DNA of 64,000 nucleotides from Allostella sp. ATCC 35155. Its GTDB lineage: Bacteria > Pseudomonadota > Alphaproteobacteria > ATCC43930 > Allostellaceae. Below, piece after piece: positions 6,565-34,262 of the stretch. A program made the translations under genes and the position numbers. The notes below the pieces were generated by a model that was given only the letters and a program-made list of their open reading frames with translations, was not told where the DNA came from and searched no databases. Numbering within the stretch: position 1 is the stretch's first letter; every line of letters starts with the position of its first letter. The stretch lies in assembly GCA_006738865.1 (NCBI GenBank), contig AP019701.1, positions 611,001-675,000 on the forward strand, in the 5' to 3' direction.

Positions 6565-7952
6565 GCCGCGGACTCCGCCGGAGCCAGGAGAACCCTGCGG
6601 CCCGGCAGGGCCGAGACCAGGGCACGGAAGCGGTCGCCGCGATCCTCGAAATCGCGAAACTGGTCGAAGGAGGCGCAGGCCGGCGACAGCAGCACGACGG
6701 CCCCCATCCGCCGTTCGGCCGTCGCGCGTTCCTGGGCCAGCCGCAGCGCGTTCCCGAGGTCGCCCGCCATCGTCGCAGGCACGCGGCCGGCGAGGGTGCG
6801 GGCGAAGTCCCCGGCGGCCTCGCCGATCAGGAAGGCGTGGGCGATGTGGGCGAACTGCGGCGCCAGGGTGGCGATGCCGCCGGCCTTCGGCACGCCGCCG
6901 GCGATCCAGTAGACGGCCTCGTAGCAGGCCAGGGCCCGGGCGGCGGCATCGGCGTTGGTCGCCTTGCTGTCGTTGACGTAGGGCACGCCGTCGATGACCG
7001 CGACCAGCTCCTGGCGGTGCGGCAGCCCGGGATAGCGCGGCAGGGATGCCGCGATCGTGCTGCGGTCGAGGCCGAGCGCGCGCGCAGCCGCGAAGGCCGC
7101 GGCGGCATTCTGGGCGTTGTGCGTCCCCGGCAGGGTGGCGGCCTGGGCGAGGTCGAGGATGGAACCCTGCGCGTCGGTCAGCACGCCGGCGGCGACGCGG
7201 ACGTCGGCCTCGCCGGCGTCCCGCCCCGAGATGCGGACGAGGCGTGCGGACCGGGGTGCCTCGGCGATGGCCGCCGCGACCGCGTCGTCGATGCCGACGA
7301 CCGCGACATGGCGGTGGTCCTGCCCGGCGAAGATGCGCTGCTTGGCGGCGATGTAGTTGGCCATGGTGCCGTGCCGGTCGAGATGGTCCGGCGCGATGTT
7401 GAGCAGGACGGCGACGTCGAACAGGGCATCTTCCACCAGATCGAGCTGGAAGGAGGATAGCTCCAGGACATAGACCCCATCGCGGCCGAGCGGGGGCAGA
7501 TCGAGGGCGGCGATGCCGAGATTGCCGCCGACCGCGACCGGCACCCCGGCCGACTTCAGGATGTGGCCGATCAGCGCCGTCGTCGTCGACTTGCCGTTGG
7601 TCCCGGTGACGGCGCAGATGCGCGCCTCCGGGCAGGCCCGGCGAAGCAGCTGGATGTCGCCGGTCACCGGTACGCCCGCGGCACGCGCGGCAAGGACGGC
7701 CGGATGCGGGGCGGGATGCGTCAGCGGCACCCCCGGGCTCATGACGAGCGCGGCGACCTGCGACCAGTCCTCGCCTGCGGGGTCGGCGATGGCGAAGCCG
7801 GCCGCGGCGGCGGCCTCCCGGTTGGCCGGACGATCGTCCCACACGGCGACGTCGCTGCCGCCGGCCGCGAGCGCGCGCGCGGCTGCCAGCCCGCTGCGGG
7901 CGAGGCCCAGCACCAGGACGCGGCGGCCGGCATATTCGCGGACGGGGATCAT
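6561..7952 (-). CDS. murD: UDP-N-acetylmuramoyl-L-alanine--D-glutamate ligase MurD
   Basis: Cytoplasmic Mur ligase that adds D-Glu. 463 residues. The N-terminal Rossmann segment VLVLGLARSGLAAARAL is followed by P-loop TGTNGKSTTT at 116-125, the GGNLGIAAL and ELSSFQLD segments, NIAPDHLDRHGTM, and the C-terminal YVNDSKATNADA motif typical of MurD. ATG at 7952 lies 7 bp after the mraY stop. Length and motif order are normal. Confidence 0.98.
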   Translation of the reverse strand: MIPVREYAGRRVLVLGLARSGLAAARALAAGGSDVAVWDDRPANREAAAAAGFAIADPAGEDWSQVAALVMSPGVPLTHPAPHPAVLAARAAGVPVTGDIQLLRRACPEARICAVTGTNGKSTTTALIGHILKSAGVPVAVGGNLGIAALDLPPLGRDGVYVLELSSFQLDLVEDALFDVAVLLNIAPDHLDRHGTMANYIAAKQRIFAGQDHRHVAVVGIDDAVAAAIAEAPRSARLVRISGRDAGEADVRVAAGVLTDAQGSILDLAQAATLPGTHNAQNAAAAFAAARALGLDRSTIAASLPRYPGLPHRQELVAVIDGVPYVNDSKATNADAAARALACYEAVYWIAGGVPKAGGIATLAPQFAHIAHAFLIGEAAGDFARTLAGRVPATMAGDLGNALRLAQERATAERRMGAVVLLSPACASFDQFRDFEDRGDRFRALVSALPGRRVLLAPAESAA

Positions 7953-31417: not shown

Positions 31418-32104
31418 ATGCGCCCGCGCTATCTTGCCCCCATTCACCGCGAAGGCTGGCCCTTCGTGGCCGGCTTCGCGGTCGCCGCCGCCGCCCTTGC
31501 GCTGCTGTGGCAGCCGCTCGGGTGGCTGGGCCTGCTCGCCACCGGCTGGTGCGCCTACTTCTTCCGCGACCCCGCCCGCACCGTCCCCGACCGCGACGGG
31601 CTGGTGGTCAGCCCGGCCGACGGCATGGTGCAGCTCGTCGAGCCGGCGGTGCCGCCGCCCGAACTCGGCATGGGCGAGCTGTCGCGGCCGCGCATCAGCA
31701 TCTTCATGGACGTGCTCGACGTCCATGTGAACCGCATGCCGGTCGCCGCGACCGTGGTCCGGCGCGCCTACCGCAAGGGCAAGTTCTTCGACGCCTCGCT
31801 CGACAAGGCGAGCCAGGAGAACGAGCGCATGGCGCTGCGCCTCGCGCTGGGTGACGGGCAGGAGATGGCGGTGGTGCAGATCGCCGGCCTCGTCGCCCGC
31901 CGCATCAAGTGCTGGGTCCGCGAGGGCGACTTCCTGCCCGCCGGCGAGCGCTTCGGGCTGATCCGGTTCGGCAGCCGGGTCGACGTCTACCTGCCGGACG
32001 GGGTGGCGCCGCTGGTCGCCGAAGGCCAGCGCGCCGTCGCCGGCGAAACCGTCCTGGCCGATCTGCTGGCGGTCGAGCCGCCGCGAAGGGGAGTGGTGCG
32101 ATGA
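31418..32104 (+). CDS. psd: Phosphatidylserine decarboxylase
   Basis: Membrane-associated pyruvoyl enzyme that makes phosphatidylethanolamine from phosphatidylserine. 228 residues, the short archaeal/alphaproteobacterial form. Features are [10 protein letters not shown] at the start, two hydrophobic stretches at about 10-45, [37 protein letters not shown], and the autocleavage Gly-Ser in [16 protein letters not shown] at 31418 is chosen; a TTG at 31391 is also in frame. It overlaps pssA by ATGA. Confidence 0.94.
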
Positions 32105-32940
32105 AGCTGAGAGGCCGGCTGCGGCGGCGCGAGCCGGGGCGCCTGCGGGCGCTGCCGATCAACCGCCTGATCCCGAACGTCCTGACCGTGCTGGCGCTGG
32201 CGGCCGGCGCGACGGCGCTGCGCTTCGGTCTCGAAGGACGCTGGGAGCCGGCGATCGGCATGATCATCCTGGCCGCGGTGCTGGATGCGCTCGACGGCCG
32301 CATCGCCCGCCTCATCGGCGGTACTTCGGGCTTCGGTGCCCAGCTCGATTCGCTGTCCGACGTGATCGCCTTCGGCCTCGTGCCCGGCATCCTGGTCCAC
32401 CAGTTCGCGATGAAGGGTATCGGCGGCTTCGGCTGGATGGTGGCGCTGGTCTACATCACCTGCTGTGCGCTGCGGCTGGCGCGCTTCAACACCAAGCTGA
32501 ACGACCCGGACATGCCGCCCTGGGCATACAACTACTTCAGCGGCGTGCCGGCGCCGGCCGGGGCCGGGCTGGCCCTCCTGCCGATGATCCTGGCGCAGCA
32601 GTTCCCGGATGCGATCTTCGCCAATGCCTGGCTGAACGCCTTCTGGCTGCTCGGCGTGGCGGCGCTGATGATCAGCCAGGTGCCGACCTATGCCATGAAG
32701 AAGATGCGGGTGCCGCAGGCCCAGGTGCCCTTCGCCCTGCTCGCGGTGGGCGTGGTCGCGGCGGCCGCGGTCAGCGAGCCCTGGCTGACGCTGGCCGGCA
32801 TCGCCATCGTCTATCTCGTCTTCATCCCGTTCAGCGTCCGCTCCTATGCCCGCCTCGCCGCGGAGACCGCGCGCCTCAAGGCCGAGCGCGACGGCGTCAT
32901 CGTGGCGATGCCGGAGGAGCGCGGCGGCGCCGGGCGCTAG
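32101..32940 (+). CDS. pssA: CDP-diacylglycerol--serine O-phosphatidyltransferase
   Basis: Membrane CDP-alcohol phosphatidyltransferase making phosphatidylserine for Psd. 279 residues, about seven or eight helices. The full active-site signature is present: [27 protein letters not shown] (D-G-x2-A-R-x8-G-x3-D-x3-D). ATG at 32101 overlaps the psd stop. The TAG stop at 32938-32940 uses the TA target duplication and first base of the inserted MITE-like element. Confidence 0.96.
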
Positions 32941-33056
32941 TGGTCCGATGCAGACGGAAGGTTCCCTTCCGTCTGCTGAATCGGCCCACTAACCATATGA
33001 TCTGGTGGGGCGACTCATCCAATCGGATGCAACCATCCGATTGGGTCGCACCACTA
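32938..33056. mobile_element. MITE-like element with TA duplication at a CTAG site
   Basis: A 115-bp element (32940-33054) is flanked by TA. Its ends are imperfect inverted repeats: GTGGTCCGATGCAGACGG on the left against GTGGTGCGACCCAATCGG read inward from the right. Inside are two perfect hairpins, 12 bp at 32950-32961/32965-32976 and 11 bp at 33019-33029/33034-33044. No coding capacity. IS630-type transposases insert at TA, often within CTAG, so a non-autonomous IS630-type origin is inferred. It separates two convergent genes and may now act as a two-way terminator. Confidence 0.8.
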
Positions 33057-34262
33057 GACGATCTCCGCCAACCGCAGGTTGACGAGGCTCTCGGCCGCCT
33101 GGGCCGCCTGTTCGCCGGTGAGACCGGGAAAGCGCGCGGCCAGCGCGGAGGCATCGAATTCCTCGGTCGTGGTCAGTGCCCAGCGGACGACCGGAACCAG
33201 GGCCGGCGGCAGCACGTGCCGGCCGGATCGCCCCTCGGCCACCACCCGGCCGCCATCCTCGGCCAGCCGCAGGCCGCCGTCCTGGCGCGGGCGGTAGCGC
33301 AGTGGCGCGGCCAGCGCGGCCTCCAGATCGTAGCGGTCGAACGGCGGCGCCTGGGTCTGGAGATGGCGCGCCAGCGCCGCCAGGAACGCAGGGTCGCGCA
33401 CCATCGCGGCGAGCCGGTCGGCGACCGGGCCGGCGGCCGCCTCCAGCCGCTTGCGCGTCGGCCGCAGCGCGAGGTCGCGGCGCAGCGCCGGGTCGAGGAC
33501 GCCTTCCTCGGCGAGGAAGCGCAGCAGGTCGGCGCCGGTCGGCACCGAGACCGCGAAGGTGACGTGGATCGTCGCGCCCGTGGAGGCCAGCGCGTCGTGG
33601 AACTGGCCGCGCGGCAGGTAGAGCAGGTCGCCCGGCTGCATCGTCACCTCTTCGCGGACGGCGCCCGGATCCTCCTTGCGCCCGGTGGCGGCGGCGGCCT
33701 GGACGCTGCGCCCGGTCGGCGCGTCCGTGCGGTTCTCGAAGATGCGCCAGCGCTTGGCGCCGTGGCAGTGCAGGGCGAACACCTCATGGGTGTCGAAGTG
33801 CGGGTTGAATGCCTGCCGCCCCTGCCGCGAGAAATAGAGGTTGGCCTGAACGGCGGCGCCGGTGGCGGCGCGCAACGCGGCCGCCGTCTCCGCCAGCCCG
33901 TCGTTCAGCTCGCCGATATTGTTCAGGACCAGCGTCGCGCCGCGCCGGATCCAGGTGGTGACGAGCCGCGGCACCGGGCGCAGCACGTCGCGCGCCTCGG
34001 TGTCGATCGCCAGCCGGCAGAATTCCTCGGCCGCGACCGCCCGTCCGTCGAGCACCAGTTGCAGGGTCCGGGCGGTCCAGATCGAGGTCTGGTTGAGCAG
34101 GCGGTTCAGTTCCCCGAGGTCCATCACCCCGCCCGTGCGCGCGGCCGATCCCGGCAGCAGCAGCGGCGTGCGGCCGAAGGTGTCGGCGAAGAAGCGCGCC
34201 GGGCCGACCGGCGCCAGCATGGCTTCCAGGCGGTCGGACAGGCGCTGTGCGGCGTCGTTCAT
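33054..34262 (-). CDS. JmjC/cupin-domain protein (ribosomal-oxygenase-like)
   Basis: 402 residues. The JmjC fold carries an Fe(II) triad: HFDTHEVFALHCHGAKRWRIF supplies HxD, and LPRGQFHDAL supplies the distal His. A C-terminal winged-helix-like region (about 290-400) resembles that of RoxA/YcfD-type 2-oxoglutarate-dependent hydroxylases of ribosomal proteins. The exact substrate is unknown. ATG at 34262, 28 bp after the kinase stop. The TAG stop is formed at the MITE-like element junction. Confidence 0.85.
   Translation of the reverse strand: MNDAAQRLSDRLEAMLAPVGPARFFADTFGRTPLLLPGSAARTGGVMDLGELNRLLNQTSIWTARTLQLVLDGRAVAAEEFCRLAIDTEARDVLRPVPRLVTTWIRRGATLVLNNIGELNDGLAETAAALRAATGAAVQANLYFSRQGRQAFNPHFDTHEVFALHCHGAKRWRIFENRTDAPTGRSVQAAAATGRKEDPGAVREEVTMQPGDLLYLPRGQFHDALASTGATIHVTFAVSVPTGADLLRFLAEEGVLDPALRRDLALRPTRKRLEAAAGPVADRLAAMVRDPAFLAALARHLQTQAPPFDRYDLEAALAAPLRYRPRQDGGLRLAEDGGRVVAEGRSGRHVLPPALVPVVRWALTTTEEFDASALAARFPGLTGEQAAQAAESLVNLRLAEIV

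Follow-up and report, generated by a model that had tools for sequence, protein, structure and literature searches.

The junction between pssA and a JmjC_2 domain gene in Allostella sp. ATCC 35155 most probably carries a non-autonomous, MITE-like element that inserts at CTAG, is moved in trans and has spared the stop codons of both genes, a reading to which we give a probability of roughly 0.87. The element is repeated in its own genome, is flanked by CTAG in most copies, has an empty CTAG counterpart in a related locus and is absent from two congeners. Its insertions are enriched at stop codons and its hairpin arms covary. It lies near the middle of the window, the stretch of 64,000 nucleotides that was analysed, and coordinates below are those of the window unless a genome position is named.

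Structure of the element

On inspection of the sequence, positions 32937-33057 consist of a CTAG, a 113-bp middle with two hairpins and a second CTAG. The halves are each near-palindromic and, both read from the outer end, have 38 of 56 positions in common. The features are as follows.

31909..32940, + strand: pssA reading frame, CDP-alcohol phosphatidyltransferase (Pfam CDP-OH_P_transf); the true start is probably inside this open frame
32937..32940, + strand: left CTAG, with TA 32938-32939 as one copy of the presumed duplication
32938-32940, + strand: TAG, the pssA stop, within the left CTAG (reading frame; C-terminus compared with congeners)
32940..33054, no strand: element body, 115 bp, G...C ends, counted between the TA copies
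32937..32992, + strand: palindromic unit 1, 56 bp (model R1, 80.4 bits)
32950-32961 and 32965-32976: arms of the unit 1 apical hairpin, perfect over 12 bp
32978..32982, no strand: GANTC site GAATC, in the unit 1 bulge
32993..33001, no strand: linker between the units, 9 bp (sequence and R1 match)
33002..33057, - strand: palindromic unit 2, 56 bp, inverted relative to unit 1 (model R1, 54.8 bits; both window units are among the 47 from which R1 was built, so the two R1 scores are not independent)
33012..33016, no strand: GANTC site GACTC, in the unit 2 bulge
33019-33029 and 33034-33044: arms of the unit 2 apical hairpin, perfect over 11 bp
33054..33057, - strand: right CTAG, with TA 33055-33056 as the other copy of the presumed duplication
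33056-33054, - strand: TAG, the JmjC_2 gene stop, within the right CTAG (reading frame; Pfam; congener C-terminus)
33054..34262, - strand: gene of a JmjC_2 domain protein, 402 aa (Pfam JmjC_2)

Positions 32930-33065 (136 nt) have a folding energy of -77.3 kcal/mol, whereas shuffled versions average -43.5 (z -8.1) and none of 200 did as well. An Rfam search returned two matches only, both far under the gathering scores. An earlier, sequence-only reading had described a 115-bp element with imperfect terminal inverted repeats and two perfect internal hairpins, flanked by TAGs that are the stops of pssA and the JmjC gene. The length and the repeats (16 of 22 positions match) were confirmed on recounting, the hairpins are perfect over the lengths given above, and reading frames and Pfam agree on the stops. 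The two-unit near-palindromic make-up and the presence of one GANTC per half are features missing from that reading.

Copies and distribution

A BLAST search of the element's own genome (G000, 5.34 Mb) identified seven loci: three two-unit copies, at genome positions 643937 (the window element), 1968060 (98%) and 4307912 (88%), along with four partial copies. Two short matches, one of 21 bp at E 0.56 and one of 17 bp at E 3.65, do not enter this count. The same seven loci are recovered by R1, a covariance model of the 56-bp unit built from 47 units. It is this search of the genome, beyond the reach of single-window reading, that shows the repeat nature of the window element. Among the congeners, R1 found two loci in G003 and none in G001 or G002 at E 0.1. 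DNA matches (BLAST) were present in 6 of 146 relatives and R1 matches in 15 of 385 class genomes, the own genome being counted in both and the R1 scan being run with strict filters and 14 candidates scored per genome. The dispersed copies in the own genome, in G003 and in further class genomes bear out the earlier view of a MITE-like element and its expectation of further copies.

A pattern scan of named genomes yielded at least 116 stretches with related elements. Among the matches listed, every title that gives a lineage more precise than Proteobacteria points, as we read it, to alpha-proteobacteria, the rest saying Proteobacteria or bacterium; the lineages include Rhodospirillaceae, Acetobacteraceae, Kiloniellaceae, Rhizobium, Nitratireductor, Chelativorans, Magnetospirillum, Prosthecomicrobium and others. 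Copies sit in many unrelated contexts, and the near-identical copies in Kiloniellaceae OFTM296 suggest, from their likeness, recent movement. On plasmids, the window element had no match at E 1 in 72,556 records (BLAST); of the four variants searched in all, three had no match and one had a weak 28-bp match in two Tolypothrix records. A protein search of genome contigs with the JmjC protein confirmed no relative, and relatives were therefore taken from a separate genome search.

The element set was reduced from 172 candidates to 149 distinct elements and leaves out loci L297-L302 (6 of the at least 116 stretches); many of its 56-bp entries are single units whose partner the finder missed. The unit table, with one row per unit, derives from 225 matches in 82 sources, opposite-strand duplicates and one duplicate locus being left out.

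CTAG as the target and the empty sites

Of the 94 elements that reach 105 bp, CTAG bounds 71 on both sides and 93 on one side at least, while it makes up 0.07% of the 4-mers in the element-bearing loci. The four bases outward of the flanking CTAG form a direct repeat in none of the 94. End classing was applied to 105 of the 149 elements (those that reach 105 bp or are flanked by CTAG on both sides) and to 309 background sites; both ends were classed in 92 of these 105 elements, with TAG at both in 73.

A clean empty site is found in Kiloniellaceae OFTM296, where a region is duplicated on the same contig with 85% likeness. One copy (L276) is filled at 7414-7535 and the other (L217) is empty, reading ...CACGTC-CTAG-GGGAAAG... 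where L276 has CTAG-element-CTAG, with a single CTAG aligned across the junction. A second filled and empty pair, inside L224 (75% alike), also has the junction CTAG, displaced by one base in the alignment, and is for that reason counted as weaker. In the congener G003, half an element lies at the stop of a gene that we take from its translated end to be sucB-like, ahead of a presumably lpd-like gene, and this gap is empty in G000 and G001. Targeting of CTAG, as proposed earlier, is thus supported by the flanks and by the empty site in OFTM296.

At the window locus itself, the element is absent from the pssA/JmjC junction of congeners G001 and G002, where the stops of pssA and JmjC_2 are 10 and 14 bp apart and do not overlap. 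The opposite pattern, a sequence kept at the same place with no empty sites or other copies, is not what was found: copies lie elsewhere and this junction is empty in two congeners. The joined flanks of the window junction are 75% and 72% alike to the congener orthologues, which have diverged so far that the exact duplication is not readable from them. The earlier reading had held that removing the element and one TA rejoins a CTAG in which the two stops overlap by 4 bp. The rejoined CTAG has its counterpart in the single empty CTAG elsewhere, but the stops of the congeners do not overlap; the exact ancestral junction at the window locus, with its 4-bp overlap of the stops, would thus be something we infer rather than see. 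In a further observation, G003 has no JmjC_2 match at E 1e-20, which may reflect gene loss or divergence; G000, G001 and G002 keep the gene beside pssA.

Both proteins end within a few residues of the ends of their congener orthologues, and the insertion therefore changed neither of them. The sequence-only reading had also supposed the proteins to be intact and had given the G...C ends of the element as the reason. These ends matter for the stops only if TA alone was duplicated, since a 4-bp CTAG duplication keeps the stops automatically. Because a CTAG target leaves an identical product either way, the junctions accommodate a TA and a CTAG duplication alike.

In the proposed mechanism, the 115-bp body, made up of two inverted 56-bp palindromic units and a short linker, would insert at the palindromic CTAG and leave a CTAG at either side, through duplication of either TA or CTAG. 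As CTAG holds TAG on both strands and the junctions restore TAG on both sides, stops survive the insertion, and an element that lands precisely at a gene's end, or as here where two convergent genes meet, would leave the proteins unaltered. The transposase would be supplied in trans, most likely by a DDE family that targets TA or CTAG, with an IS630-like enzyme as the first candidate and an IS5-like enzyme as the second.

Insertion at stop codons

Whether a flanking TAG is the stop of the adjacent gene was called by a codon-usage frame caller trained on the loci themselves. It was applied to 70 insertions that have both CTAGs and sufficient flanking sequence, and to 303 ordinary CTAG sites from those loci after removal of repeats. 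A stop on at least one side was called for 29 of the 70 intact insertions, as against 62 of the 303 background sites, an odds ratio of 2.7 (p 0.0006, with kinship among copies ignored). Among insertions that were not labelled as inside a gene, 19 of 54 had such a stop, compared with 35 of 195 (Fisher p 0.009). Copies in one genome are not independent, and both tests therefore overstate the significance. The label 'inside a gene' (16 of 70 insertions) was not used as a result because it is crude and is given to the window insertion itself. Stops on both sides were found for three of the 70 insertions (the window element, L154 and L272) and for two of the 303 background sites, and of the three insertions only the window element has Pfam matches for both genes.

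Pfam matches were obtained for 16 of 20 checked stop-adjacent proteins, the 20 having been hand-picked, not randomly drawn, from 41 frames. They include PEPCK, an ammonium transporter, AccA and an SSB whose sequence closes with DDEIPF, the known conserved C-terminal tip of SSB, so that its stop is the native one. Not every stop call is secure: on the right of L130, for example, the first start leaves 8 aa. The simplest reading of the stop landing is target choice combined with purifying selection: CTAG is rare, lies partly at stops, and is tolerated there as an insertion site. Such tolerance alone may explain the enrichment relative to CTAG sites overall.

Covariation, modularity and GANTC sites

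The hairpin arms vary between genomes (ACGGAAGG, ACGCTTGG, ACGGATGG and others) yet remain complementary. In alignment A2, double changes occur in 11 of 21 pairs; they amount to 113 cells, while shuffling gives 51 on average, and pairing holds in 82% of cells as against at most 45% for slid versions. Four pairs of the A2 structure fit badly (columns 3-55, 8-49, 13-41 and 12-45, the last being mostly gap). In the full-element alignment, double changes occur in 10 of 28 pairs. The covariation may arise from selection on folding, from recognition by the transposase or from template-switch repair of palindromes.

Seven copies in G005 (L056, L073, L087, L088, L090, L092 and L093) keep unit 1 and have an unrelated TAAAATCAGACGGA-type palindrome in place of unit 2; the joining of unit 1 to an unrelated palindrome indicates that the elements are modular and that halves are exchanged. 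In the same genome, a different CTAG-bounded hairpin (L049:1454-1504 onward; G005:C9 about 79169-79290) abuts a family end, and both use the same CTAG, which suggests that several unrelated palindromic repeats use CTAG in G005. Further composite arrangements are seen at L271:6868-6979, where another family end begins in the right CTAG of the element, and at L196:6620-6739, where unit 1 is repeated in tandem with both copies facing the same way; these suggest repeated insertion at one target word, or duplication of a unit.

Of the 94 full elements, 86 contain GANTC; the share is 14% among 2301 flank windows of equal length and 37% among single-base shuffles. Together with the palindromes, this conserved GANTC might point to host selection beyond selfish spread.

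Candidate mobilising transposases and alternative explanations

An IS630/Tc1-mariner-type transposase that duplicates TA and prefers CTAG, as proposed for RUP and IS630-Spn1, is a good guess for the mobiliser, with about an even chance of being right. RUP is described in the part of the source consulted as a non-coding, intergenic repeat of ~107 bp that is inserted at TA and is thought to be moved in trans (PMC2229807). The window element is likewise short, non-coding and intergenic, lies between TA copies and would also be moved in trans; it differs from RUP, as described there, in having no partner IS found, in its two palindromic units, in its CTAG target and in its alpha-proteobacterial hosts. 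The CTAG flanks of most copies fit such a transposase, and the preference of IS630 for the TA within CTAG is stated in a title (Tenzen and Ohtsubo 1991, via PMC2170065). Direct repeats of 4 bp other than CTAG are found at none of the 94 elements, and DDE_3 matches are present in 9 of 11 element-bearing genomes tested. At L306, in the element-rich Paracraurococcus MAG (G427), an IS630-type element lies between CTAGs and its ends begin TAGTGTCC and TAGTGTTC, which favours the IS630 family without proving it.

Against an IS630-type mobiliser, G000, G003, G036, G122, G397 and G426 have no DDE_3 match and all bear elements. Inspection of 30 loci, from 55 rows of DDE_3 matches in relatives, showed none that is bounded by the family ends, a script having recognised terminal repeats in only a few of these loci, and in a smaller DDE_3 search in relatives neither of the two loci was so bounded. 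Family-end pairs 0.5-4.5 kb apart included none that is IS-like (L187-L266, 80 of at least 116 loci), and a stricter rule applied to a wider set of loci gave no pairs. The search, which covered the DDE_3 and Y1 families, found no autonomous partner with the ends of the element. The IS630-type origin put forward by the sequence-only reading is thus without backing from the own genome, which lacks DDE_3, and the full IS630 element with GTGGTsCGA ends that it had called for is not among the DDE_3 loci inspected.

Three candidates for longer elements were rejected. At L308 (G424), a supposed 2.7-kb element with related ends proved to be an IS630-type gene with other terminal repeats, situated between two separate repeats. 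These repeats of ~100 bp (L308:24-123 and about L308:2614-2719) have TAGTGGTGAGAATC-type ends, lie on either side of the IS630-type element and perhaps represent a sister family of MITEs whose ends likewise carry TAGTGGT. The right 'end' of a 1.4-kb candidate at L197 falls in an ordinary reading frame, and the frames between its candidate ends are presumably fabF and mltG. At L215, the left end is a 20-bp CTAGCGG...CCACTAG stretch that lies 3.8 kb from a known copy, with several open frames between.

It is also possible, at somewhat short of even odds, that the element is a CIR repeat (Caulobacter CcrM-associated intergenic repeats) that is kept for its GANTC methylation sites. In the part of the review consulted, CIR1-CIR4 are described as intergenic repeats of about 110 bp in alpha-proteobacteria, with two arms, a linker and GANTC at the terminal loop (PMC2229807). 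Compared by description only, they have the size, the two-arm layout, GANTC and the host class in common with the window family, and the presence of GANTC in most full elements, twice in the window element, agrees with this. The sites here are at the stem bulge rather than the terminal loop, however, the CIR section of that review names no target site and contains neither CTAG targeting nor landing on stop codons, and common descent alone can preserve GANTC. The conclusion that the element is a CTAG-inserting MITE-like element does not make it a new kind of sequence: by analogy, the family resembles RUP in mode and the CIR repeats in appearance, and palindromic repeats of the MITE and CIR-like kind are already known. 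RIME1 of Rhizobium and Bru-RS of Brucella are short intergenic palindromic repeats of alpha-proteobacteria as well, and the window element is like them, by description only, in being short, palindromic and intergenic. The titles and abstract openings returned by a literature search included none describing the family of the window element, or stop-codon landing of a CTAG-targeting MITE.

For the mobiliser of this MITE-like element, an IS5-type transposase, with duplication of all 4 bp of CTAG, is a live rival to the IS630 type, if an unlikely one. The precedent is MITEPsy1 of Pseudomonas syringae, listed in the part of the source consulted as a 100-nt element labelled 'IS5?', thought to derive from ISPsy2 and duplicating 4 nt at its CTAG or YTAA insertion sites (PMC3189936). 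Like the window element, it is a small MITE at CTAG with a duplication, and the junctions here fit a 4-bp duplication equally well; its terminal sequence differs (GGAAGGTCTGAAAAAGCC), and insertions with a YTAA-type direct repeat number 0 of 94 in the window family.

The very stable hairpins between convergent genes and the covarying arms are what a host 3' regulatory element or a two-way terminator of the pssA/JmjC pair might also show. This is very improbable, given that the junction lacks the element in two congeners and that copies are found in many unrelated contexts. The earlier suggestion of a two-way intrinsic terminator is not supported, as no site of hairpin plus T run was found inside the element; the sole terminator-like site, 32705-32717, lies in the pssA frame. 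The element is probably without a dedicated job at this junction. A REP/BIME-type repeat mobilised by a RAYT (Y1) transposase, which has a similar GTGG foot, bulged palindrome and paired inverted units, is the least credible reading, as the own genome, the one genome searched, has no Y1_Tnp match and the flanking CTAGs, like the empty CTAG site, fit target duplication.

Implications

We hold only tentatively, and with more doubt than belief, the wider reading of a widespread alpha-proteobacterial MITE family that would use gene stops as a safe harbour through CTAG at near-zero cost, with hairpins kept complementary and units exchanged. If it is true, insertion would be accommodated even between two overlapping convergent stops. 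The covariance model and the 149 elements now define a family that would escape gene annotation, and hairpins of this origin between convergent genes call for caution in reading such hairpins as terminators. The findings suggest that target choice could make a mobile element nearly harmless in gene-dense genomes, when the target is a stop-bearing palindrome that is restored on both sides.
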